Below, one piece after another: positions 22,605 through 63,406 of a stretch of 64,000 bases of DNA. The DNA lies in contig NW_006920414.1 of NCBI RefSeq assembly GCF_000344685.1, positions 642,714 to 706,713 of the forward strand. The letters run 5' to 3'. The DNA is from Gloeophyllum trabeum ATCC 11539. Taxonomy: Eukaryota; Basidiomycota; Agaricomycetes; Gloeophyllales; Gloeophyllaceae. The notes under the pieces are model-generated. The model saw only the letters and a list, made by a program, of their open reading frames with translations, did not search any database and was not told the origin of the DNA. Both the position numbers and the translations under genes were made by a program. Position 1 is the stretch's first letter. Every line of letters starts with the position of its first letter.

Positions 22605-24514
22605 ATGTCCCACGGCAAGCAATTCACCCTCTACACGCACAAGGTACGCTCGCCACCTCTCCCTCCTTGTACTGAGAGCAAAAGGATCCCAGGGCGGACC
22701 GAATGGGTGGAAAGCCGCCCTCCTCCTTTCCGAGCTCGGGCTCTCCTACGAGTCTATTTACCTTGACTTCGAGCGCGGCGAGCAGAAGACTTCGCCGCAT
22801 GTGGACCTGAACCCGAATGGGCGGATACCGACTATCGTGGACCATGGGTGCGTCCTGTGCTCACCCTGCGTTCATGCGGAATGAGATGGTGGATCAAGGA
22901 ACAATGACTTCGTCCTGTGGGAGTCGAACGCGATCTTGCTCTACCTTGCCGAGCGGTACGACCCTGACCACACGCTCAGCGCGAGCACCGACGCGGACAA
23001 GGTGCGTGTTTTCCAGCCCACCCGCCTCCCCTCTCTCCCCTTCTCGCATACAGTGCACCATAATTGATCCTAACGCGCGGACGAAGTACAAACAGCTCCA
23101 ATGGCTCTTCTTCCAAGCCTCGGGCCAGGGCCCCTACTTCGGCCAGCTGGGGTGGTTCAGCTGGTATCATCACGAAAAGTACTTCTCTCCCTTCCCGCCG
23201 TCTATATACTGTGCTGGGTGTGATATGGAGACTAATAAGGACGACTGATAGGGTGCCCTCGGCCATCGAGCGGTACGCAGCCGAGGCCAAGCGCGTGCTG
23301 GGCGTCCTGGACGGGGAGCTCGCCAAGCGAGAATGGCTCGTCGGGGATAAATACACCATTGCCGACTTGGTGAGTGCGTCGCTCCCTCCCTCTCTTCCCT
23401 CCGCCCCCGCCCCCCCCCNCCCCCGCTCTCCTGACATATCGACAGTCCTTCACTCCCCGTGGACGGTNNNNNNNNNNNNNNNNNNNNNNNNNNNNNNNNN
23501 NNNNNNNNNNNNNNNNNNNNNNNNNNNNNNNNNNNNNNNNNNNNNNNNNNNNNNNNNNNNNNNNNNNNNNNNNNNNNNNNNNNNNNNNNNNNNNNNNNNN
23601 NNNNNNNNNNNNNNNNNNNNNNNNNNNNNNNNNNNNNNNNNNNNNNNNNNNNNNNNNNNNNNNNNNNNNNNNNNNNNNNNNNNNNNNNNNNNNNNNNNNN
23701 NNNNNNNNNNNNNNNNNNNNNNNNNNNNNNNNNNNNNNNNNNNNNNNNNNNNNNNNNNNNNNNNNNNNNNNNNNNNNNNNNNNNNNNNNNNNNNNNNNNN
23801 NNNNNNNNNNNNNNNNNNNNNNNNNNNNNNNNNNNNNNNNNNNNNNNNNNNNNNNNNNNNNNNNNNNNNNNNNNNNNNNNNNNNNNNNNNNNNNNNNNNN
23901 NNNNNNNNNNNNNNNNNNNNNNNNNNNNNNNNNNNNNNNNNNNNNNNNNNNNNNNNNNNNNNNNNNNNNNNNNNNNNNNNNNNNNNNNNNNNNNNNNNNN
24001 NNNNNNNNNNNNNNNNNNNNNNNNNNNNNNNNNNNNNNNNNNNNNNNNNNNNNNNNNNNNNNNNNNNNNNNNNNNNNNNNNNNNNNNNNNNNNNNNNNNN
24101 NNNNNNNNNNNNNNNNNNNNNNNNNNNNNNNNNNNNNNNNNNNNNNNNNNNNNNNNNNNNNNNNNNNNNNNNNNNNNNNNNNNNNNNNNNNNNNNNNNNN
24201 NNNNNNNNNNNNNNNNNNNNNNNNNNNNNNNNNNNNNNNNNNNNNNNNNNNNNNNNCCCGCCCGCCCCCCCCCCCCCCCCGCTCTCCTGACATATCGACA
24301 GTCCTTCATCCCCTGGACGGTGACCGGCGCCACCGGCCTCATCCCGGGGTACGACGTCAGCGCGGAAGCGCCGCATGTCGACAAGTGGCTGCAGCGCATG
24401 CTCGCCAGGCCGGCGGTACGAGCGGTGTACAAGGAGAAGGACACGATCAGGGCCGCGAGTGGGGGGACGGCTGTGTGGGACCGGAATTTGGTTCACGGGG
24501 AGAAGGCGGAGTGA
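22605..24514 (+). CDS. Ure2/GstA-type glutathione S-transferase
   Basis: Model join(22605..22643, 22693..22847, 22899..23001, 23087..23178, 23252..23369, 24302..24514), 239 residues, frame intact if the N gap is ignored. The N-terminal thioredoxin fold shows FTLYTHK, GGPNGWKAALLLSELGL, VDLNPNGRIPTIVDHG and the glutathione-binding WESNAILLYLAERYD. The all-alpha C-domain shows LQWLFFQASGQGPYFGQ, YAAEAKRVLGVLDGELA, REWLVGDKYTIADL and WLQRMLARPAV. These cytosolic enzymes conjugate or reduce with glutathione; the Ure2 name denotes the family, not nitrogen control. The 5' part of the last exon appears on both sides of the gap. Confidence 0.88.
23468..24256. other. Assembly gap (789 N) with overlapping flanks
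   Basis: Both flanks contain a poly-C tract followed by the same GCTCTCCTGACATATCGACA intron end and the same start of the last GST exon. One further N lies at 23419. The left flank has one-base insertions (CACTCCCCGTGG versus CATCCCCTGG) typical of poor reads. Confidence 0.9.
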
Positions 24515-46001: not shown

Positions 46002-49000
46002 CTATGAAGGTTGCACTCGTCTTCTTCTGACCTCCTCTAGTGCTTCTGTCACAGCTTGCCTGGAAGAACACTCCGCTCTCCATTTGTCACTCGCTCGCCT
46101 GCAAACCACCGGTGAGTATGGGGAACACCATAGGCAGCTGAGCATGCTTACTTCACTCTAGAGGCGAAGATGACTGAAAGCGCAACGCTCTTCAGTGACC
46201 TCTGTCTCGCCCTTGGAGGTTCAGGAGGAGCGGCAAAGCCCACTCGAGCTATAGCTGCTAGTATCCTTTGCTCGCTGCCGTAAGATCCTCCGTAGTCAGT
46301 GCAACCCTGTAATTTCGAGCGGAGGATCAACTCACCTCTTTTCGAACTTAGCCAGAAGAACTAATAAGTAACGCTTCTGATACCCGAGGTCGCATCTCAA
46401 CGCTGACTCGCGGGTGAACTTGGCCTTGAGATATCGGATCTGGACGATGAGACCTTTGCATTCTTTATTATGCCGGAGTTTCAGTGCGGACAGTTGCTCT
46501 TCGTCACTAAGGATGGAGATACACGTTAGTATGTCACTGAACCGTGCCGCGGGAAGACTCACATCGCGCAGACATGACCTTGCCACTTATCGCATGCCGT
46601 CTTTGCTTTATCCAACTGCTCTCCGAGCACTTTGGCTTTGGCCTCAACTTGCTTCTCCCTTCGCCGCGCTTTTCCAATCTCGTCTTCCATCTTGACCTTT
46701 TCTGCGCGCAGCTGCTTAAGGTCTCTGCCAAATGCTTCGGCCTCTTTCTTAACCCGGCGCAGGTCTTCCTCCAGCGCGGCAATGGCAGCAGCTGCAGAGC
46801 GGTTGTTCTCGGCCTGGGCGCGATGGTGTTCAAGTTCTGAAGCTTGAGCAGACAGAGCTTGGCGAAGATCATCCACTTCATGCAAAGCCATGTCCAGTTG
46901 ATGACGCCGACTCTCGTGGGATGTTTGCGAAGCGGCGTACTCGTCACGCAACTGGTTGAGATGCTATGTCCCTATGTGAGCATTGCAATGGGCACAACCA
47001 GAAATTTCCTCACCTCAGAGACCTCGGTAAACTGGCGCTGCAGTTTCTTGTGGTCGGCAACCAAGAGAGAGCGCTCTTCTCGCAACTGCTGGATAGTCTC
47101 CGCATTCTGCGCCACTTTCACGTCCAGCAGCCTTGCCTTCTGTTCCGACGTGGCGTTGGCTGTACCACGGTCAATTCATGAAGTCGCTTGATTGACCGGA
47201 GTGAGTCTTACCTCGCAACTCGGCTTCAAGCTGGTGGTTCTCTTCCTTTGCGTCTTGCAATTGTCGTTTGACATCATCCATGTCCTGTGTCCAACCGTTT
47301 AACCACAAAGGAGGATCGGAAGAACGTGCGCCAACGTACTGATTCTGTCCTCTGTAGTTGAAGGAGAATGTCATCTTTCTCCCGTTCAATTCGACCACGC
47401 TCGGACGTCAAACCACGGAGGCGGGAGCGTTCTGCCTTCAACTCTTGTTCAAGCTCAGATACAACTCTCTTGGTCTTGTCAAGTTCCTAAGAAACGCCAT
47501 GAAACTGATCAATGAAAGCTCTCACAACGATCGAAAGTAGCGCACAGTCTGGAGACTATATTTCGCCTGCTCGTTAGCACGATGGTCCTGTTTGACCTTC
47601 TTGGCCTCACTGCTGGCCTCTGCCACTTGTAGGTTAAGCCTGTTGGCTGCATCTTGAAGGACGGCTTTCTCCCCAAGGAGCTGCCTTTTCTCTTCTGCCC
47701 ATTGCTTCTTCATGGACTCCAGCTCCTGGTTCACAGCACGCAAATTGGCACGCAGGGCATCGCTCGTCTTCGTCGGTGGAGTAGGGGGGTCCGTTGCAAA
47801 GCTGGCCATTGATATGTCCACGGAACTAGAAGGCGCCATGTCAGCCGCATGCCATAACAAAGATGCAGGTGAGCATCATACCTGTCGTTACCCTCCGCTG
47901 CCCTATTCAAGCTACGTAGGTCCAATTTGTGGTGACATTTCGTGCATCGTACGCGCTGCAAGCGGCGAAGTCTCCTCTCATCCCTCCGGGAGAGTCTACC
48001 GATCTCGTCTTCCAGATTGATTATCCGGTTCCGGGCGTCGTCTAGTCTCTTGGTAAGCTCGACAACGCCCAATCCAGCGTCTTCGAGTTTCTCGATCTTC
48101 TCGTCGATGCTTTCATTCGCTCGATCGAGTTCGTCCTGCAAACGCGAGATTTCTGCTAGCAACGGTGCGACAGATTGCTCGATCTCGGTACTTTGCAGCC
48201 AAGACAACTTAAGAATTTGGGAAAATATGTCACTCCTCTGCTAAAGCTACAAAAGATAGCCGTACCTCTCTCAGAGGACCGCCAGGGGTCTTTGGACTCT
48301 TGAACGACAGGACGTGCCTCCGCATGGGGGACACTCCAGACATGTTGCTAAGATTAGCGAACCTGCTTGGAGTCGTAGCAGCGTTCATGGCGCTCTTCAA
48401 CGATTTGATTCGCTCGAGCAACTCCTCCTTCTCATTTTCGAGAAGCTCAATCTTAGCGTCCTTGGCCTTCTCTATCGCCTTCCGCGCCGGAGACTGTTGT
48501 GTCGTCGCTTTGAGCTTAGCAATCTCTTTATGGGCCTCCTGTAGCTCAGCTTCAAGAGCGTCTACATCCGCGTCGGGCTCGCCGAATCTGATGCTCTTAG
48601 AGGGATCAGCCCGATTCCTCGCGTCCTCGAGCTCCCACTCCAAGGAGGCAATCTTAGCCTTGAGGTTGGCGGTCTGCGTCTCGTCTTCTAGCATCCTGGT
48701 TTCGGCCGCTTCGAGGGCGTCCTCCATCTGCCTGGCTAGTTCGCCAGCGCGTTCTGCCTGGCCTTCGAGCTCCTCGACGTCCTTCTCGAGGGATTCTATA
48801 GCACCGTGGGCGTGTTCCAAGTCTGCTTCGGCCTGGTGCAGCTTCTCATTTGCTTCAGCGAGTTCCCGCTCCCGGGCAGCTCTTTCGGCCTCTGCCTCCG
48901 CAAGGCGGGCCTGGGCGTCATGCAGCTGCTGCACGGTCTGCACATGCTCTTCCTCCAACTCAGCGAAGCGCCCCTCGGCGTCATCGGCGTCCGTGTACAT

Positions 49001-51645
49001 CCGCTGCATGTCTTCCGCAGACTCCTTGGCGGCGTGTTTCTCCTCTGCGAGTTGGTGCTGAAGGGCGTCCAACCGCTCATTGCTGAGGATAACGTCCTCC
49101 TCGAGCTGCTTGATCTGCATATTCGCACCGCGGAGGTCTGCCATAGCTTGGGCTAGCCTGTCGTTAGCATGCCTCAGCTCGCTGCCCAACTCCTTCCCGC
49201 TCTCGAGGACCTGCTCCGCTTTCTCAGCCCTTTGCAGAGCCATGTCTCGTTCGTCCTCGACAGCGGCCAGCATCGCCTGTAGGCTTCGGAGCTCCCTCTG
49301 CATGTTGCTCTCCACAGCCTTGGCATTGCCCTCCGCCTCGCGGACTTGACGCTCTAGTTCCTTGACGATGTCGCTCACGCCTTTCTCCACCTCGCCCATC
49401 TTCTCCTTCCACCGCTCCTTGTCCTTCGCCCGCTCCTCCTTCTCCTCCTGCAAGCCGCGCTCGAGCTGCTCCTTCTCCGCCGTCACGCCCTGCAGCTTGT
49501 CCTTCAGTTCCTCGACCATGTCCTCCAGCACCGCCTTCTCCTCGCCGCCCTCGCTGACGTCGCCCAGGGAGCTAACTGCGCTCACCCGCCTCCCCCCACT
49601 TACCCTCCTGGCCGTCAGCCCAGACCCACCCCCACCGCCATCCGACCCCGTCCCCCGCTCCTCCTCCAGCTGCCGCAGCCTCTGCACGAGCACCTCGTTC
49701 TCCTCCTGCAGCCGCCGATTCAACCCATGCAAATACGTGTTCAACTTCGTCGCATTGAACCGCCCGACGCCGTGGCCCTCCCTCCCGAGGCCCACTACAG
49801 GGTCGAAGGAGGTGTTCGCGCGTGCGTGCGTCGTGAGGTCGTGCGAGGAGGCGGTGGAGATGAACGACGCGCGCTCGCCGGCGGAGTCGTACGGGGACTG
49901 CGAGAGCACCTCGTCGGACCCCGACGCCTCCTCCGCGACCCACCCCTGCGCGAGCGGGTGCGATAACCGGCCCCCGGCGCGCGGGCGCGGGCGGGGCGTC
50001 ACCCCCGCGAACAGCTTCGCCCCGGGTGCGGGCGTCAGTAGGTTCTGGGAGACGCTGCTTGCATCCGCAACGCCGCGGTTGGGATGCGGAGTGGCCTTGA
50101 TCCGCGGGCGCGCGGTGGAGTTAATCACGGAGAGGAGGAACGAGCGTTTGTGCGCGACGGGTGTGAGCGGATCGTCTGCGCCTCGCAGGTTCTGCTGCTG
50201 ATCGTCGGCATCTTCTTCGTCTTCGTCCTCTCCGATATAGGCAGAAACGCTCAGAGGCGTCTCAGGCGCTGTGGGGAGGCTGAACCGCGCGCGGGGGCGG
50301 GGGCGCGCCTGGAACGCGGGGGTGGGGGTGAACGTGATCGACGGCGCGGGGGAGGAGAACGCGACGGAGAGAGGGGCGGGGGAGTGCAGGTTGCTTTGTG
50401 GGTTCCTCGCGGTCAGGCCTTCCTCTGAGGAGAACGTCGGCTCTCTTTCGTCCTGGCTCTGGCTTTGGGTTTCACTCTGGCCAGCTCGAGATTCGCCAGT
50501 TTGAGACCCGTCAATATTGAGATCCGAATATTGTTGGAACTGCTGGGTGTGATTGGGCTGCGACAGGGACAGGTCGGCTTCGGAGTCCGTCGGGAGGTCG
50601 GGGTGTTCCAAACCAGATATGCCCTCGTGTTGTGGGACTCCAGGCGCGTACTCGGTCACATCCACGTCGTTCGTCGTTTCCTGCTCACGCGCCCACGAGT
50701 TCTCGTGCGCTCTCCCCCTTTGAGCACCACCGACAGCGGGCGATGCATTGGCTGAGCGCTGTAGCGGGATGTTCGTGGCCGAGGCGGGGTGGGGCGAGGC
50801 GGAGCCAGCGCGCGAGAGGTTGACGGAGTTTCCGCTGCGTGGGGTAGAGTTACTGGGAGACGATTCGGGTGAGGGCGTCGTGCGCGAGAGGGAGGGTGTC
50901 CGCGTGCGAGCGGCCGGTCGGCGGAACGAGACGTTCTTCAGCTTGTCGAAGGGGGAAGGCTGCAGTATAGTATAATCAGTCGGAAGCTGAGTGTGCCAGC
51001 GTTTTGAGGGGAGCGTACCTTAGGCTCCGACCGTAAGCTGACGGAGTAGTCATAGTTCTTCTTTGGGGTCGGCTTTCCGCTGGGTGCGTGTGTAGGACGC
51101 GGGGAGTTGCTGCGACTCACAGGTTCGAGAGCGTCGGAGAGCGACAAGTCCTGTAGTTCGTCTTCCTCAGCGTTACTAGTAGCAGCGCCGGACTTGAAGT
51201 TTCTGTGCCTTTCCGCAACGTCTTCCTCCTCCATGTCTCTCTCCGCCGCCTCCCGTGTCACGTTAGGGATGCTAGGAATGATACTGACGTCAAAGCTGTC
51301 CTGGTCTTGTCGATGGCTAGAGCTCGCTCTGGACACAGAGAGCGCAGACTTGGTCGCAGTGGACCGAGAGGCAATCGAATTCGCGAAACGTTGGGTACTA
51401 GACGTGCTGGACGGCGGGCGGATGGTAGAACGGGTTGCGCCATGGACTGACGAGACGGCGGGCGTCGAGTGTATGGGCAAAAAGTCTCCGCTATCGTTGG
51501 CGTCGTCCTGACTTTCCGACTGCGAGTCGCTGGCAGCAGAGTCTTCGAACACGGGCAGAGATGGCAGGGACGGCATTTCTTCGTTTTCGACGGCCTGTAT
51601 ACGCCGCCATATCCTGGACGGCGTCTCCAGCTGCACGCCCTGCAT
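46002..51645 (-). CDS. Pericentrin-like spindle pole body coiled-coil protein (Pcp1/Spc110 type)
   Basis: Eleven exons: complement(join(46002..46098, 46152..46274, 46336..46506, 46563..46963, 47014..47159, 47212..47284, 47340..47486, 47546..47825, 47882..48207, 48266..50959, 51019..51645)), 1694 residues with all phases consistent. The N-terminal 500 residues are Ser/Pro-rich and include PFDKLKNVSFRRPA, resembling the centrosomin motif 1 that recruits gamma-tubulin complexes. A central coiled coil of more than 1000 residues follows. The C-terminus has a PACT domain, LIVQIRYLKAKFTRESALR, then YQKRYLLVLLAKFEKSEQR and ARVGF, which in Pcp1/Spc110 binds calmodulin and anchors to the pole body. It ends KWRAECSSRQAV and an Arg-rich tail. 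It converges with CRD1, 255 bp apart. Confidence 0.88.
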
Positions 51646-52533: not shown

Positions 52534-53181
52534 CTACTTATTCCATCGCCAGGCCCTGTACTCTGCCATATTCTTTCCCAACCAATCATACAACTCCTCC
52601 CGGTCCCGACACGTCCGTTCCCGGCCCCAGGCCACCGTCCCGTCCTCTCTCACTGGCTCCAGCTGTATATTTGCGTGGCACAGGATCATCTGGCGCAGAT
52701 AATTGAGACAGTGCTGTACATGCCCGTCCCCATGGCCCTCTTGGACGAGCGCCCGCCGGACGCTCTGCATGCAGTGCATCTCGTGGAACGCGGACAGCGC
52801 GAAGAGGCGCTTGGAAGGGCCGAGGCGGACGAAGCCGTTGCCGTCGGGGAACACCGACGCCCAGTCGTGTTCGTCTTCCTCGGAGCTGATCCCGAAGTGA
52901 GTCGTGTTCTCGTGGAGTGTCCATGTCGATTTGCTCAGCGTCAGAGGCAAGTAATCCGGGAAATCGAGGTCGTCGTATGCTGTCGTCCAGGGTATACGTT
53001 AGTGTTCTGCTGCGGGTCGAAGAGCATTATTCTCACTATAGTGATGAGACTTTGCCCAACTCGAAATATTCTTGAACAGATACCACAAGTTCATTGCGGT
53101 CAGGGATGCGATTATGGCGATACAGATAGCTGGGAATATGGGCCAATTGCCCTGCCGAGTGGCTTTCGTGTGTTGTCCCAT
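52534..53181 (-). CDS. UstYa-family (DUF3328) oxidase-like protein 1
   Basis: Model complement(join(52534..52979, 53037..53181)), 196 residues. One transmembrane segment lies near residues 15-35 (FPAICIAIIASLTAMNLWYLF), so it is a type II membrane protein with a lumenal domain. The DUF3328 landmarks are DWASVFPDGNGFVRLG, the metal-type motif HEMHC (residues 114-118) and HC (138-139) followed by LNYLRQMILC. UstYa/UstYb and relatives carry out oxidative macrocyclisation in fungal RiPP pathways. The intron is 57 nt with an ACTAAC branch site. It is divergently transcribed from the second UstYa-like gene. Confidence 0.85.
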
Positions 53182-53667: not shown

Positions 53668-54416
53668 ATGTCCTTGAGCACCACGTCTCTCGAAGACAAC
53701 GGGCGTCAAGAAAACCGTCGGGACTACGGGACGGCGCAGCTTGTCTGGCTCGGTGCTCTCGTTGTGCTTACGAATTTATTGGTGTTTCGCTTCAAGATGG
53801 GTAACATGGCAGACGCGTGGTTCACAAGCTTCTACTCGTACGGTACGTAGATTCAGATGAGAGCCAGGCTCCTGGCACACGAAACATTTAGTTGATTTAA
53901 ACCTCCCACTCAGACTACGCCGCCGATGATTTTCCCGAATCATATCCCATCGGACCACTCCCTGAGGCGCAGCTGATCATTGAAGACACCGTCCACTACC
54001 AAATCAACACAGAGGACGCAGACGAACACTGGGCCTCCATGTTTCCGAGCGGGGGCGGATTCGTGCACCTCGGTCCCCACTACCGCGCGTTCGGCATATC
54101 GATGTTCCACCAGCTCGCGTGTCTCAATGACATCCGCCAGACGCTTGCAACCCCCTTGGCGGACCGGACTGCCGCCCAGCTGGAGAGCAATCATCGCTGC
54201 TTCAATTACTTAAGGCAGACGCTGCTGTGCGAGCCGGAGCTGAGGCTGGAGCCGGAGAGCGATAAGCTGAATGAGCTGGGCCTCAATGAGGTTGTTGACG
54301 GGTTGGGGATGAAGCATTCGTGCAGGGATTGGACGGTGGTCTACGAAGCGATGGAGAGCAACTATAATGACACGAAAGAACATGACCAATCGGTACATAC
54401 TTTTATTCTTCCATAG
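53668..54416 (+). CDS. UstYa-family (DUF3328) protein 2 with altered HxxHC motif
   Basis: Model join(53668..53842, 53914..54416), 225 residues. The transmembrane helix is near residues 24-41 (AQLVWLGALVVLTNLLVF). The lumenal domain has HWASMFPSGGGFVHLGP, then FHQLACLNDIR at 124-128 where HxxHC would be expected (the second His is Ala127). At 152-159 it reads HRCFNYLR in place of the usual HC...YLR (a residue separates His and Cys). Family membership is clear from order and spacing. It may be a non-catalytic partner or have changed chemistry. Its 3' end faces the 3' end of the precursor gene, 236 bp away. Confidence 0.82.
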
Positions 54417-54652: not shown

Positions 54653-55262
54653 TCACCTAGTACCCTGACCTCCGTCTGCACCATCGCCCGCATCTACGGT
54701 GACATGAGAATCGACGACAGCGTCGGGTGCAGAATAACGGCAACCTACATGTTTCGATGGCCCAAGCTGCAGTGACTGGAGGATCTGCTAGAAGGACGTA
54801 AGTGACCACAACCATCAACAGATAATTAAACACACCACGCTTGTTGGCACCCGCGCCAGGGTCTGGGTGTGATTTTAGGCATGCCCCAACAGAAATAAAG
54901 TGAAATGACGCACAGGCCACCAGTCTCCAGTCACTACCGTGAGCTAGGAGAATATTAGCAGACGCAATAACGAGCACCTGTTGGACAAACCGCGTTTCTC
55001 TGCCCCCTGAGGTCCGTCCGCGTCAGACGTTTCGTCTACATATACATCCATATTGAGCTGTTTATAGTGGCCCCGTAGCTGTCAACATACATTCCGCTGC
55101 AGCCCATTTAGCAGGAACATCAGCTCCTAGAGGCAGGATCGCCTTCAGTAACTCATGTCACGGACTCATGGGCTTACCAGTGATTGCCGCAGCTGTAGCC
55201 CTCATGAAGCATAATGACGCCATGGTGGCCGCAACGAAGGCAGTCAAAGCAAGACGAACCAT
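54653..55262 (-). CDS. Secreted repeat precursor with Lys-Arg sites, candidate dikaritin-type RiPP
   Basis: Model complement(join(54653..54693, 54749..54787, 54836..54862, 54914..54943, 54991..55035, 55091..55126, 55178..55262)), 303 nt, 100 residues. All six introns are 47-55 nt and phase 1. Residues 1-26 form a signal peptide (MVRLALTAFVAATMASLC, then Ala-rich). Three units follow, beginning at Ala30, Ala56 and Ala75. Units 1 and 2 end in Lys-Arg (54-55, 73-74) and unit 3 ends in Thr-Arg at the C-terminus. Each unit holds Trp-x4-Tyr: WAAAEY (36-41), WRLVAY (61-66), WAIETY (83-88). After Tyr come Gly/Asp/Ala-rich spacers. Kex2 cleavage after Lys-Arg and UstY-dependent modification of repeated Tyr-containing cores define dikaritin precursors. 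A TATAAAT lies 65-72 bp upstream. The product and chemistry are inferred. Confidence 0.75.
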
Positions 55263-56303
55263 GGTAGAAGATGGGTTCTACAGTTCTTCTGTAGTACTTA
55301 TACCAGAGGTCGTAATCGAAGAGCGAATTTATACTTCCTCCCGAGAGAAGATCAGCGACCGGACGATGGGTATCAGGGTACCGAACATAAGCTCAATACC
55401 CTTCTCGGTCTGTGGCTTGTAATAGATGGAGAAGAAGAGAACTCAGGCTGATTCTGGCTCTCAAACCAGCACCGGAGGTAAACTCGGCCGGATGTGAACA
55501 TTGAAAATGGTACGAACAACAACACAATGCGGTATAGGTATTTTTTTCGTATGGCTTCCACGGAGAACATTACAGAGCGTATGCCAACAACGTCATCATG
55601 TGCCATGCTGGCATATCTACTACCCTGAAGTAAGTACTATGCCCGCAGGTGTCGGCATGTTCTGTCATGAGCGCCTTGGTGGCGCACATTTTCATAGCCG
55701 CATTGTGACGTTAGGTCACCAGGTGATAGCGTTCTGGAAAAACAGACCTGCCAATTGCCGCCAACCTGTCGTCAAATCAACACATGCTTGATGTTTCGAT
55801 GAACTCCGGTGAGGGCAGTATACTCAAACCTTACTAAAGCAGATGTCAGGAACAAGCTCTGAACAAATCCCAAAGAGAGATTCCCCATGCCCACGTAGGT
55901 TCCCATTGTTTGCTATGTATATGCAGGAACTCGAATTCATGGCAATGGTATTAATGATGTGGACCTTAGTCCTCAGACCGCCTAAGTATATCTTGCCGGG
56001 CGGCTCCGATGCCGCTTTCATTGTCCGGTTACCTCCGATCTGGATCCTTTCATCAGATTCTGACATTCATCAAGTCCAAGTCGAACCTGACAGCCTGCGA
56101 GTCTTGGTCGAATATGTCGAATGACTGGCCGCGACTGTAAGCCAGTGAATGGGAATGCTCGGTGTCCTGGGGAACTACTGGGTTCGCCGTTTATGCTGCG
56201 CATCGTACTGGGATACAAGTCAACCTGGCGAATCAAGACTTAGTTAATACTGGCAGTCATCCTGGTCTCCCTTTGTTAACAACCTTGGAATCCTGCTATC
56301 TCC
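55263..56303. other. Intergenic with the precursor TATA box
   Basis: 1.04 kb between divergent starts of the precursor and the MFS gene. TATAAAT (minus strand, 55327..55334 region) is the precursor's likely core promoter. No other exon with splice support was found. Confidence 0.5.
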
Positions 56304-58492
56304 ATGTCTGACGACTCGGAATCTCGGCCCTTGCTCGCGGAAAGGTTCCATGACACCACCTCTAGTAATGACACCGATGTTCAGATCCAAGGGAGTTGCC
56401 TGGCAGACCGCCGGAGCGTGCTCTCCATAGTAAGTGGTCGTTCCGAATGAAAAGACATGTAGTTGTATGCTGTATGCAACGATTGGAAACCCAATGCCTC
56501 CACGGGTCTCGCTAGGAGTTCAGGTTTGGCATTCTAACTCGGTTCTTCTAGGTTCTTCCCCTGGCTATCGGTGTCTTCCTGACTGCGCTGGACACCACCA
56601 TCGTCGTGTCTTCATATGCGTCCATTGGCAGCCAATTCAACCAACTAGAAAATACTAGTTGGATTGCAAGTGGATATGTGCTTACGGTAACCAGTTTTCA
56701 GTGAGCCATTCCATCGTGCTTCTCCATAGCGGCTCTGCGAATTGTAAAATAGACCTTTGTACGGGAAGTTGAGCGACATCTTCGGACGCAAGCCATGCTT
56801 GCTGACAGCCTACGTGTTCTTTGGCGTCGGATGTTTGCTCTGTGGAGTTGCGAAAGACATGTATTGGTTAATTGCTGCCCGAGCAATGTCGGGCATAGGC
56901 GGCGGAGGTATATTGACGTAAGTGGCAAACAACGTGACATTGACAGAATACGTCTCTGACTAGTGCGAATGCAGGGTTGGGTCCATCATAGTGTCTGATG
57001 TAGTTCCATTACGCTCAAGGGGTACCTGGCAAGGTATCGCCCTCTTTAGGGACCGTTCATCACTGGAGCTGACACGGGTCCTCAGGTATTCTCAATATCA
57101 TCTTTGCTACTGGGCAAGTCACTGGCTCTCCGCTAGGCGGGGCTTTTGCCGATAGTATAGGCTGGAGATGGTCAGTAACATTGCGGTCCCTTCCCACTCT
57201 GTGTCCCATTGTTTCCCCATCGGACAGGGTGTTCCTCCTTCAAGTTCCCTTAACTGCAGCGGCCTTTTTGTCAGTCAGCCTGGTCCTGAAGCTTCCTACG
57301 AAAGCTTCGGAAGAGGACTTCTACTCCCGACTCAAGCGGGTGGATTTTGCTGGTGCAGCGGCCCTCATATCCTCGATCTTCTTCCTCCTGCTGGGTCTTG
57401 ATAGAGGCGGTAATATCGCCTGGTTAGACTCAGTTACAGTCTCTTGCCTCGTTATATCCCTCATTTCATTCTGCTTCCTCGCCATCGTCGAGTTCAAGCT
57501 AGCTCGGGAACCCTTCGCACCGGCACGCATCATGCTGTCATCGTCCCTCTCCAGCCCGTTTATGTGCAACTTCTTTGGTACCATGTCCTTCATGTGTCTC
57601 TTCTACCAGCTACCCTTATACTTCCAGGTGGTACAAAGTATGACTGCCTCGCAAGCTGGCTTGGGACTGTTGCCCACTATCTTTGCCGGGACGCTCGGTA
57701 GTTTGACCGGGGGGCTGATCATCCAGGCCACTGGAAAATACTATATCCTCACTGTGTGCATGTACGGCACAATGTTGGTGGGAACGGTTCTCATAGCGTT
57801 AATCACCGGTCACATTGGCTATTCACTGGTTGGGATTATAGTTGGTGAGGCCACCGCTCTCCCGTGCCTCGACCTTCTTTTTTGATGGCTACGCTCGACT
57901 ACAGGTTTGGTTCTCATGTCCCTTGGCAATGGTAAGTTTACACTATGAACTCCCCTTCGTTAGCCTATTCACTGCCTCAGGCACCGGTGTCACTACAACT
58001 CTAGTCGCCCTAATAGCGAATGCTGGGCCTCAAGACCAAGCTGTCGCGATCGCCGGTACATGCTTGGCCTCCCTGTGAAGAGAAGATGGTTCACTGACTT
58101 CCACCAGTATCGTACCTTTATCGGTCTTTGGGCCAGGTGATCGGGATATCAGTGGGCAGTACTCTTATCCAGAACGAACTTCGACATCTCTTGGGGCAAC
58201 GCCTGACCGGGTATGACCTGGATGTGGAACAGGTACGCAGCATATCTTCCAGCGCGTGATTCTCGAATACAGAGACGTTTAGGTTGCACGGCGAGTTCGA
58301 GAATCTCTGGAATACATCAATGGACTCGATCCCGAGGTACGGGCGGTTGTGAGACAGTCATATGGCGATGCTTTTCCTTTCGCCTTCTCTTTTTCGGTCG
58401 CTACGGCTGTAGCTGCGTTATGCGCCGCCTTCTTTGTTAAGGAGAAGAGTCTTTCGAAACCACGTCCGTCCCAGGAGTCATCTGATGAATAA
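56304..58492 (+). CDS. MFS transporter, DHA2 (14-TM) drug/toxin or basic amino acid exporter type
   Basis: Ten exons: join(56304..56429, 56552..56700, 56753..56917, 56975..57033, 57086..57170, 57228..57844, 57905..57931, 57981..58055, 58108..58232, 58283..58492), 545 residues, phases consistent. Landmarks are LAIGVFLTALDTTIVVSS in TM1, motif A-like GKLSDIFGRKPCLL, ARAMSGIGGGGI, VPLRSRGTWQG and motif C-like GQVTGSPLGGAFADSIGW. FFGTMSFMCLFYQLPLYFQ and a C-terminal hydrophobic segment ending in a Ser/Lys tail follow. Family members export secondary metabolites or load basic amino acids into vacuoles (Vba type). Its place beside the RiPP-like genes favours export, but that is inference. Confidence 0.85.
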
Positions 58493-59443: not shown

Positions 59444-60738
59444 ATGGCTTACCCTGTAGACAAAGCCTGGCTGGTGGGAATTTTGGTGGAAGGTGTCCTA
59501 TACGGTGAAACCATTGCGGCCCTCCTGTGCTCGATAGAGCTGACTGCTCAACGAAGGAATCCACATCGTCCTGTTTGGGTTCTCCCTGACTTTCCTCGTC
59601 TGGCGAAGGGGCAAAACTAACATTAATTGGCTCATGCTTCTGTCGACCTGCGTTATATTCTGCGCCTCGACTGCTCACTTCGGTGTAGCGTTCAATAACC
59701 TCGTCACTGCATTTGTGAGCTTCGTTGTATCCATCCCTTCTGCTACTAAGCTTGCATCCATAACTTCTGTCCCCATGGCAGATCACTAAACGAGACGAAC
59801 CTGGAGGGCCTGCAGCCGTCATCAACAGTGCAGACCTTGTGTTTCCAATAAATCTCATGTTCAGTATCAACAACTTCTTGGGAGATTGTATCCTGGTTCG
59901 CTTTCCTAGAAATTTATCGCTTACTTCTGCTCATTGATGCGCCTCCAGACATATCGGTGCTGGGTAGTGTGGCAAAAAGACTTACGTGTCGCACTGGTCC
60001 CTATCCTCCTTCTACTCGTCTACGTCGGTGAGTGATCAAATACTCTAAGCTTTTCATATCCTCACCAGGTCAAGCACAGCTTCCGCTATTGTGGGGTTGT
60101 ACAACTTTCATCAAGAGGCAAAATATGGCAATCACTTCACCGCTGGCATCGCCGATTTTGGCACTGCTTCTTTTGCTATCTCTCTCGCTCTTAACATTCT
60201 CATGACGTCCCTCATCGCTGGAAGAATCTATTCTCTCGCTCGGCAGAATAGGATTGCTCTCTCGGCTCGCCACACGAAACAATACATGTCGATCATAGGC
60301 ATCATCCTCGAATCTGGTGCTCTGTTCACTGCGGCTCAAGTCGTCTTCCTGGCGATATGGCATCAAAGCACTATCCATCATGCAACAGGTGCCGATGCGA
60401 TCACGGCAGTCATGGTGGCACAAGTATATGTGAGTGTTTGCGCAGTTGCTAGGTACCATCATATTCACAAGACTTCTGGGATATAGTGCATCGTGCCCAC
60501 TCTTATAATCGTTCGAGTGGGGTCGGGATCGTCGTACGACAACACTTCAGCCCTCGGGGGCTCTCAAAAGCCCGTTAGCACTATCAAGTTCAGCACCAGG
60601 TCGCCTGCAGCAGAAGATAGCAAAGCAGGAACGGATTCACAGACAGCAGTTAGTTCAATGTACTATGCCTCTCGTTCAGTTACCGAGGCCGACGTCAACG
60701 ACCTGTCACTTGTACGAGTTAAAGCTGAAAATGTGTAG
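59444..60738 (+). CDS. Basidiomycete 7TM integral membrane protein
   Basis: Model join(59444..59504, 59557..59714, 59782..59895, 59949..60027, 60080..60429, 60487..60738), 337 residues. Hydrophobic segments appear in order: LVGILVEGVLYGIHIVLF, MLLSTCVIFCASTAHFGVAF, the DLVFPINLMFSIN segment, VALVPILLLLVYV, ADFGTASFAISLALNILMTS, ILESGALFTAAQVVFLAI and VAQVYCIVPTLIIVRVG. GDCILTYRCWVVWQKD marks the cytosolic loop typical of a large Agaricomycete family of seven-helix proteins without known ligand. The tail is Ser/Thr-rich. No GPCR signature is certain. It follows the MFS gene in the same direction. Confidence 0.78.
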
Positions 60739-60938: not shown

Positions 60939-63406
60939 TTAATGCCCAGCATGCATCCCGTTCCACAACCTACCAGGCAAGCCGAACATTCCTCCCCTCC
61001 GGCAAATCTCCTCCATGGCGTCCTGGCTTAACTCGCTTTCCATCGCACCGACAGCACTTACATTTACTGCAACACCTTTTTCCTTCTCCGGCTCGTACCT
61101 CACTGTAACCTCCAAGAGACCCGATATGGGTGGCTTTTCAGGAGAAGTCATGATTATGGTTGGACGGGAGGAAGAGAAAGTGGACAGGGATGAGTCGAAG
61201 AGAGGATGATGCGCTGGATCGGGGTCGGCTGAAGAGGCAATATAGACGTTCACGGGGATCTTCCGGGGCGTAATGGAGCCTGCCAAGTTACACTGGAGTT
61301 GGTAATCAATACAGGAGAGAATTGAAAATACACCGACCACTCAGTACGGCGTGCAGGTCTTCTTCCGTTACATCAGCATCTTCGTCTTCCGGTGGCGCTC
61401 CCGTCGGGCGGTCTTTAATATTCGCCAAACCCTCCGGCAACCATTGGCAACCGAGAAGAGTCTGGTTGAGCCATGCTTGTTCTTTCACTATCTGGTAGAC
61501 AAGGTCAGCAAGCACGATCAAGTTTGACCAAGTCCCATACCTCCAAAATTCCCCAAACTTCTTTCATGTTTCTTACCTGCACCCGTTCCAGGAAGAAACC
61601 TGGTTCCTCTGGGGCAGTCAGACGGAGTTGAAGGTCCGGATGTGATGCAGTGGGGGATGTCTGGAGGTAACTCAGTAATCAGGCTGCTTAATATATTACT
61701 GTTGTGTACACACGTAGACAGCGGTGTACCTTTCAGGAGAGACCAGGTTCGAGGCATCGGGATTCAACTGTTCCGTGACGAAAGCGAACAGCACGTGAGT
61801 AAGGATTTCGATACTGCTGTACCAAGAGACGTCATAAACACGCACTAACAAGTCCACCCAGCTCCCCCCTCCGAAGCTCATCATTCCACCCATTCCACCC
61901 GCTGTCATACCCCCGAACGGATTCACGATGATTTCGATCTCATGCATCCGACTCTGAGCCATGACCATGCCCCTCGACCTCCCACCCTCCGTGAAGTCTA
62001 AGTCCCACCTATATCTCAGCGTCTCCGCCGATTCCTCACCTTGAGATTGGGGTTGAGACTGAGGGCCAGGAAAAGCATAGCCCGTCTCCTCCGGCGTGGA
62101 GAGCAAAGGGAACGTCGGCCGAGTACTCAGTGGGGGCATTTCCATCGAGTCCTCCGACATGTGGATTTGGGACTGCGCCTGCTGAACGAGGTGGAGGCTA
62201 GCTAACGTGACCCCCGGTGGCTTCGGGTGGGAGTTGAGGTAAGTGCGGAGATGAGGGACGGGTATGTCGATTGAGCTTCCTGAGGAAGACTGGCGGGTTT
62301 GGGAGGGGGAGGAGCGGAGGAGCGTGAGGTATGAAAGCGGGGAGATGTGGATGAGGAAGGACATCGTAGGAGAGTTAGTGTAAGGTAATGGCAGTGAGTG
62401 CGCACGCATGAGATAGATATCAAGGGGCGTTGGATCCAAGGATAACGATCTTCCTCGAAGGATGCTACCTGAGATCTACCGCCATGAATATGACAATGGC
62501 AATACTCACCTTGATATAGCCTCCGTCTCGCTCTTGGTTACTCCCTGAATAGAAGAAGCCAACCGATCGACCTCACCGAACCACCGTAAGCCAGAGTCTC
62601 CTTCCTTTGCAGCCAAGCTATCCAAGCTCATAAGGTACTCTAAACTCTTCGCGACGACCTTGGCCAGCCTCGCGGCTTCCGCGCAGTCCTGTGTCTCCTC
62701 GGATCTCTGCGCTTCGTCTAAGAATCGCCGAATCACTTCCATCAGGAAGATGTCGAGAGATGTCGAGCCGACAGCGTTGCTCGCCCCTGCACTCGCACTG
62801 GGCACAGCATAGCTCGTCTTCACGTTCGTCAGCGTTAACTTGGGGCCGGCCGCATCGTTCCTATCCAGAGCAACCTCGACGTCCACTACGAGGACCTTCC
62901 CTCCAAGGACCAGCAAAATCCTCCCATCGCGCTCTTCTTCTCGGAAGCACTCCATCCCCGCTGAGGTCCCCCATGTCTCCAGTCGTGAGAGACAGTAGAG
63001 AGGTATGAGAGCTCGGTCCAGAGGAATGTCTTCGATGTATTCTGTCTTATAGTGTGCTTTGCGAAGCTCTGATATCGTGTGGGCGATGCCTGTCTCCGAC
63101 TACTAAATAGCACATGGGCACCTCAGCCTGACTTCTGGTAAAGCCTTGTGATCTTACCGAATGCAAAGTACTCTGGATAGCGGCATGTTGTCGCAAAGTG
63201 GATACTAGCTTAGGGTTTGAGTAAGGAAGCGACAAGTGAAGATTTAGTGATTGCGAGAGGATGCTCGTCGCATCGAGCAAGCTCCTCAATTCAGCTGTCG
63301 ATGTCTCGGATGAGGAAGCGAATGGGTGGAGGGTGTTTGTTGGCAACGCGTCCGGCGAAGCGTACTTGTACAAAGTCGTCAGCAGACTGTCCGTTCCGTC
63401 CATCAC
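60939..63406 (-). CDS. MED1: Mediator complex subunit 1
   Basis: Model complement(join(60939..61279, 61338..61491, 61541..61660, 61714..61767, 61846..62449, 62510..63099, 63158..63406)), 703 residues. The conserved part lies in exon 2: TGIAHTISELRKAHY, IPLDRALIPLYCLSRLETWG, then RILLVLGGKVLVVDVEVAL and LTLTNVKTSYAV, the pattern of fungal Med1 (a middle-module subunit contacting activators). SLDIFLMEVIRRFLD and ALDPTPLDIYLMR-type segments follow. Later exons give SWVDLLLNPDASN, SPERYTAVY, RLTAPEEPGFFLERV and a C-terminal GGMFGLPGRLWNG. The acceptor of intron 1 is chosen among several nearby AGs by frame. Intron 6 has a GTCGGT donor. Confidence 0.72.

Follow-up and report, generated by a model that had tools for sequence, protein, structure and literature searches.

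The locus and the anatomy of the candidate precursor gene

The 64-kb stretch of agaricomycete DNA analyzed here (the window) contains a candidate RiPP precursor gene that sits between a pair of UstYa genes and an MFS transporter gene, neighbors that commonly accompany dikaritin precursors. The two UstYa genes are arranged head to head and both lie within 2.5 kb of the precursor, which is convergent with UstYa-B at a distance of 236 bp. The features of the locus are as follows.

52534..53181, minus strand: UstYa-A, a DUF3328 protein (Pfam UstYa, E 5.6e-15) with an intact copper motif, HEMHC..HVQHC (4/4 His)
53668..54416, plus strand: UstYa-B, a DUF3328 protein (Pfam UstYa, E 1.5e-11) with a degenerate copper motif, HQLAC..SNHRC (1/4 His)
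54653..55262, minus strand: candidate RiPP precursor gene, seven exons encoding 100 aa, with consensus splice signals and introns all in phase 1
55178..55262, minus strand: exon 1, signal-peptide-like start MVRLALTAFVAATMASLCFMRATAAAIT (by hydropathy and by eye)
55091..55126, minus strand: unit 1 core exon, W at 55106-55104, the last base being base 1 of the Tyr codon
54991..55035, minus strand: unit 1 spacer exon, remainder of the Tyr codon, acidic/Gly spacer, KR at 54997-54992
54914..54943, minus strand: unit 2 core exon, W at 54929-54927
54836..54862, minus strand: unit 2 spacer exon, KR at 54842-54837
54749..54787, minus strand: unit 3 core exon, W at 54764-54762
54653..54693, minus strand: unit 3 spacer exon, last residues TR, then stop
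56754..57882, plus strand: MFS transporter, matched exons with the gene ends unmodelled (PF07690, 36.4 bits, one frame)
60049..60483, plus strand: hydrophobic, probably multi-span membrane-protein exon (by eye), from a family enriched near UstYa genes

The joined exons encode, in order, MVRLALTAFVAATMASLCFMRATAAAIT, GADVPAKWAAAEYETSDADGPQGAEKR, AHGSDWRLVAYPGAGANKR and ADPPVTAAWAIETYAGDGADGGQGTR: a start that hydropathy marks as signal-peptide-like, then repeat units separated by Kex2 sites, with unit 3 ending in TR and a stop instead of KR. Each unit is encoded by a core exon followed by a spacer exon, both micro-exons of 27-45 nt. The six introns (51, 55, 47, 51, 48 and 55 nt in order) are all in phase 1, and all have GTNNG[CT] at the donor, [CT]AG at the acceptor and, close to the 3' end, a CTNAN site. 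Introns 1, 3 and 5 mark the start of a unit, introns 3 and 5 falling immediately after KR plus one base, and introns 2, 4 and 6 cut the Tyr codon of the W-x4-Y core. Because every exon boundary is in phase 1, insertion or deletion of a complete unit would preserve the reading frame. Exons have a GC content of 58% versus 47% for the introns.

The cores of units 1, 2 and 3 are WAAAEY, WRLVAY and WAIETY, and no position of the inner residues AAAE, RLVA and AIET is identical across the three. An earlier note on this DNA had described a signal peptide, three W-x4-Y units and six introns, and the exons and motifs indeed lie at the coordinates it gave, on the minus strand. Its Lys-Arg after units 1 and 2 and its C-terminal Thr-Arg are exact in the joined sequence, and its remark that the cores vary around a fixed Trp and Tyr holds, these two being the sole core positions identical in 3/3 units. 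The observation is thus confirmed for the exons, both KR sites, all three W-x4-Y motifs and the terminal TR. The dipeptides after the two KR sites, AH and AD, do not fit the XA/XP Ste13 signature of alpha-pheromone-type KEPs. The joined precursor matched no Pfam family at E <= 5.

Intact and degenerate UstYa proteins and the other neighbors

Both UstYa genes are two-exon models with a hydrophobic N-terminal stretch. An exon-wise search of the genome (35.5 Mb, 34 contigs) gave at least 13 UstYa matches at eight loci. Both motif Cys are present in 13/13 of these ORFs, and all four His of HxxHC..HxxHC in 8/13, the other 5/13 having one or two; UstYa-B has a further His one place off the motif. 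Tight UstYa pairs, all divergent, are found on contigs C5 (that of the window), C6 (576-579 kb), C7 and C14, and in all four one protein is intact (4/4 His) and one degenerate (1-2/4 His). The looser pair on C1, 8 kb apart and on the same strand, is intact-intact. Lone genes comprise two on C4 (intact) and one at C6:217 kb (degenerate). The closest domains in the genome are those of the C7 locus, with 50% identity to UstYa-A and 53% to UstYa-B; UstYa-B also shares 50% identity with C1:3942417. AlphaFold2 models of the two domains were poor (mean pLDDT 55.4 for UstYa-A and 63.5 for UstYa-B), the two motif helices of UstYa-B nevertheless being formed (block means 66-95).

Work on the DUF3328 protein CctR reports that two copper ions are bound through HxxHC(x)nHxxHC, whose four His make up a binuclear copper site within a homodimer, and that mutation of the His or Cys abolishes activity (PMC12435403). 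Since UstYa-B retains one of the four His and such CctR mutants are inactive, it is unlikely to bind copper in the CctR manner, and a role as partner is the simplest reading. The pairing of an intact with a degenerate protein offers a concrete hypothesis for the presence of two UstY proteins in some pathways, e.g., that of ustiloxin. DUF3328 and heterodimer were not found together in the open-licence literature.

Dikaritin clusters are expected to include a transporter or peptidase, and this one has an MFS gene at 56.8-57.9 kb, where one frame scores above the PF07690 cut-off of 33.4 (36.4 bits) and an ORF scores below it (26.2 bits). A six-frame search of 56.2-64 kb gave no Pfam match for tyrosinase, P450, methyltransferase or peptidase, and neither tyrosinase nor methyltransferase was found among 20 long ORFs sampled from 34.3-63.1 kb; introns or unsampled ORFs could hide one, and the 44-52 kb side is covered by sampling only. 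On that side, a 929-aa open frame at 48233-51019 (minus strand) has a weak tropomyosin match under the Pfam cut-off. The protein encoded at 60049-60483 matches no Pfam family over the cut-off; its family has at least 15 members in the genome, and of the 15 listed, five (counting the window's) are no more than 8 kb from a UstYa gene. With the query removed, 4/14 listed members lie within 8 kb (a zone of 143,915 of 35,486,548 bases; binomial 2.6e-7) and 5/14 within 15 kb, both distances having been set after the list was seen, and 10/14 are beyond 8 kb. Elsewhere in the window, 790 bases (23419 and 23468-24256) are N, and Rfam gave no matches in the window.

Proposed biosynthesis and its alternatives

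The described dikaritins (ustiloxin, phomopsin, asperipin-2a and victorin) share with the candidate a signal peptide, Kex2-site repeats and adjacent DUF3328/UstYa genes, and most share Tyr in the core. The candidate differs from them in its W-x4-Y core, in having just three diverged units, in the two micro-exons per unit, and in coming from an agaricomycete, whereas the described dikaritins are reported from ascomycetes (PMC10512285, PMC12048977); the five named as of 2022 in one account are all ascomycete (PMC10512285), and the Basidiomycota RiPPs given in the other are amatoxins, phallotoxins and borosins (PMC12048977). No tyrosinase or methyltransferase was matched in 56.2-64 kb or in the sampled ORFs of the candidate cluster, unlike the early definition of dikaritins, which included both; later clusters lacking them are described as accepted (PMC12048977). 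The epichloecyclins (GigA) resemble the candidate in their imperfect repeats, which give several related cyclic peptides, and in a Tyr inside the core, and differ in their Tyr-Ile link, nonapeptide size and ascomycete source (PMC9233826). Going by its description, type P-3 of a KEP survey also has W in its repeats, accompanied by P, and is partly basidiomycete (Galerina, Psilocybe, Coprinellus, Fonsecaea, Cladophialophora), with DUF3328 neighbors in 4/7 members, but is classed among the types without Tyr (PMC7329392). A works-like comparison can be made with the plant burpitides, whose side-chain macrocycles are closed by copper-dependent BURP cyclases. The DUF3328 site, planar and with four His, has been likened to that of these cyclases (PMC12435403), although the enzyme family and kingdom are different.

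The earlier note knew of no described family with a W-x4-Y core, and we likewise found no such precursor among the listed titles and opening lines of abstracts in the open-licence literature. Basidiomycete candidates are already present in surveys, given the 103 of 1680 basidiomycete KEPs with DUF3328 neighbors (PMC7329392) and the 16 UstYa-like genes of Pleurotus (PMC8893723).

The best explanation, to which we assign a probability of about two in three, is a dikaritin-like RiPP precursor whose Tyr, and perhaps Trp, is most likely crosslinked by UstYa-A in partnership with UstYa-B, and whose product is cut out by Kex2 and exported by the MFS protein. The earlier note's reading of the gene as a dikaritin-style repeat precursor cut by Kex2 is well supported, above all because two UstYa genes, which that note did not cite, lie within 2.5 kb. 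A DUF3328 neighbor accompanies 22% of the 7878 KEPs in the survey, the number of such neighbors being highest at the immediately adjacent gene, and repeats holding Tyr make up 65.6% with such neighbors versus 38.2% without (PMC7329392). What can be seen directly is the anatomy of the gene, its neighbors and the state of the copper motifs; the steps that follow are inference. The precursor, once spliced, would enter the ER via its signal peptide, and UstYa-A, as a membrane-anchored binuclear-copper DUF3328 oxidase, would modify each W-x4-Y core in the ER lumen. The modification would most likely be an oxidative crosslink via Tyr, perhaps also involving Trp; the choice of these two as the modified or joined residues comes from the three units of one gene, and a macrocycle closed between Trp and Tyr would be the boldest form of the proposal. 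UstYa-B, without most of the copper ligands, would be a partner subunit, serving as heterodimer scaffold or substrate binder. Kex2 would cleave after KR, other peptidases would trim the spacer and the MFS protein would export the product.

A real rival, quite possible though not our favored choice, is that the core is modified by UstYa without Trp and Tyr being joined together, with Tyr bonded instead to one of the inner residues or with hydroxylation or desaturation of the core. A Tyr-Ile link occurs in ustiloxins, phomopsins and probably epichloecyclins, asperipin carries two links formed by the side chains of inner Tyr residues and victorin has a Phe-Leu link (PMC9233826), and DUF3328 proteins are also reported to hydroxylate and halogenate (PMC12435403). 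The W content of KEP repeats is not raised by DUF3328 neighbors (20.5% with versus 24.5% without; PMC7329392), which is what makes Tyr-only chemistry a serious contender. Against a link to an inner residue, AAAE, RLVA and AIET share no position and so provide no common partner.

We consider it unlikely that the gene is an ordinary KEP yielding linear secreted peptides while the UstYa pair acts on something else. The low proportion of basidiomycete KEPs with DUF3328 neighbors noted above would favor such a reading, as would the linear peptides obtained from Coprinopsis KEPs in Pichia (PMC9769878); yet UstYa genes are scarce, with at least 13 matches at eight loci in 35.5 Mb, and two of them adjoin the precursor, and the AH and AD after KR are not the Ste13 signature.

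The bearing of chance was assessed with patterns defined after the gene had been seen, so that the rarity figures are guides, not p-values: the unit pattern (W-x4-T, GTNNG intron, AY, then K/T-R) has five matches in 408,000 strand-bases (the 64-kb window plus seven other UstYa loci), of which three are the precursor's own units, all inside 350 bp, and two are single sites in the same window at 63323 (plus) and 5109 (minus). In 60 simulated windows, the unit pattern occurred 0.05 times per window and a looser core gave no triples inside 600 bp; with two real single sites against 0.05 simulated, the simulation underrates the real background. In 54.3 Mb of simulated sequence (one strand), a signal-like start followed by at least five all-phase-1 exons appeared once, as did a chain from a signal-like start with at least two introns directly after [KR]R. 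At least three all-phase-1 exons followed 364 simulated starts, and the precursor's start is the sole one in the real window with even three. Across the genome, the bare DNA pattern for W-x4-Y-x-KR is not a rare one (31 matches, versus 48 for its reversed control), so the motif alone carries no weight and it is the exon structure that counts. The likeness score of units 1 and 3 was reached by 4/5000 shuffles; likeness is weaker for units 1 and 2 (41/5000) and units 2 and 3 (79/5000), there being three diverged units only, with unit 2 shorter and more diverged than the others.

The codon usage of the precursor is not coding-like, scoring 0.006 in frame versus 0.043 in the next frame, with 329 of 2000 random 303-nt frames reaching the in-frame score, and its GC3 is 0.47 versus 0.58-0.76 in six neighboring coding stretches. 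A short, Ala/Gly-rich, fast-changing precursor may show neutral codon usage, which we count as no support. Introns 4 and 5 lack an in-frame stop, so that an unspliced reading is possible (ORF 54660-55022), and splice-chain searches favor precursor variants with different internal or 3' exon ends. Two alternative ORFs, 54660-55022 (minus) and 55057-55419 (plus), were rejected with codon-use scores of -0.154 and -0.044, below that of the precursor. A further reading, in which the exon chain arose by chance or is a decayed gene (a pseudogene) flanked by genuine UstYa and MFS genes, would fit the codon usage, low GC3, stop-free introns, alternative exon ends and single unit-pattern sites. It is nevertheless very improbable, given that comparable chains appeared just once or twice in 54.3 Mb simulated, that the 408,000 real strand-bases hold one unit triple and the 60 simulated windows hold none, that phase and unit structure are regular, and that GC is higher in exons than in introns.

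Sister loci and significance for mushroom-forming fungi

No sister precursor of the same design was detected at the seven other UstYa loci, including the C7 locus. The unit-pattern search returned 13 rows, three of them the precursor and ten single, unclustered sites (five in the window, five elsewhere) judged to be chance. Of the 14 rows from the KR-intron chain search, six were the precursor and eight, elsewhere, were dismissed by eye. One splice-chain search gave no candidate at the other UstYa loci, a second gave a best repeat score of at most 45 there versus 78 at the precursor, and a third gave two 3-exon chains in these loci (20 kb each), both without repeats. A split-aromatic search of the C7 and C1 loci found no repeated unit, a six-frame listing of KR repeats contained no KEP recognized by eye, and inspection by eye of part of the C7 flank (395330-398400) found nothing. 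The best lead from low-stringency tblastn, C14:694134-694093, falls within a longer frame that includes a membrane stretch and was rejected. The joined precursor matched itself and one chance site (E 0.77) in the whole genome. A PDB search gave three matches at chance level (E 0.36 or worse).

Around the lone UstYa gene at C4:2601974 there are signal-peptide-like starts at C4:2597883, 2605421 and 2607731, with basic residues soon after, and these could be secreted precursors of a different design. The genome has 38 DUF6533 and 20 DUF6534 matches (15/20 of the latter over the cut-off), counts that suit an agaricomycete, as we take both to be agaricomycete marker families.

A more speculative and, as a whole, doubtful proposal is that mushroom-forming fungi have their own UstYa branch, with an intact plus His-depleted DUF3328 heterodimer, a dedicated membrane protein, Trp-Tyr macrocycles and micro-exon precursors. 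If true, micro-exon precursors would evade gene predictors and could explain why basidiomycete KEPs seem to be without UstYa partners; exons of 27-45 nt are one way in which such precursor genes could hide. The KEP survey proposed that the cyclization factor of Basidiomycota differs, or that KEP cyclization "might hardly occur" there (PMC7329392). A precursor beside a UstYa pair in an agaricomycete makes this proposal directly testable, and the candidate dikaritin-like precursor would extend the peptide class to mushroom-forming fungi.
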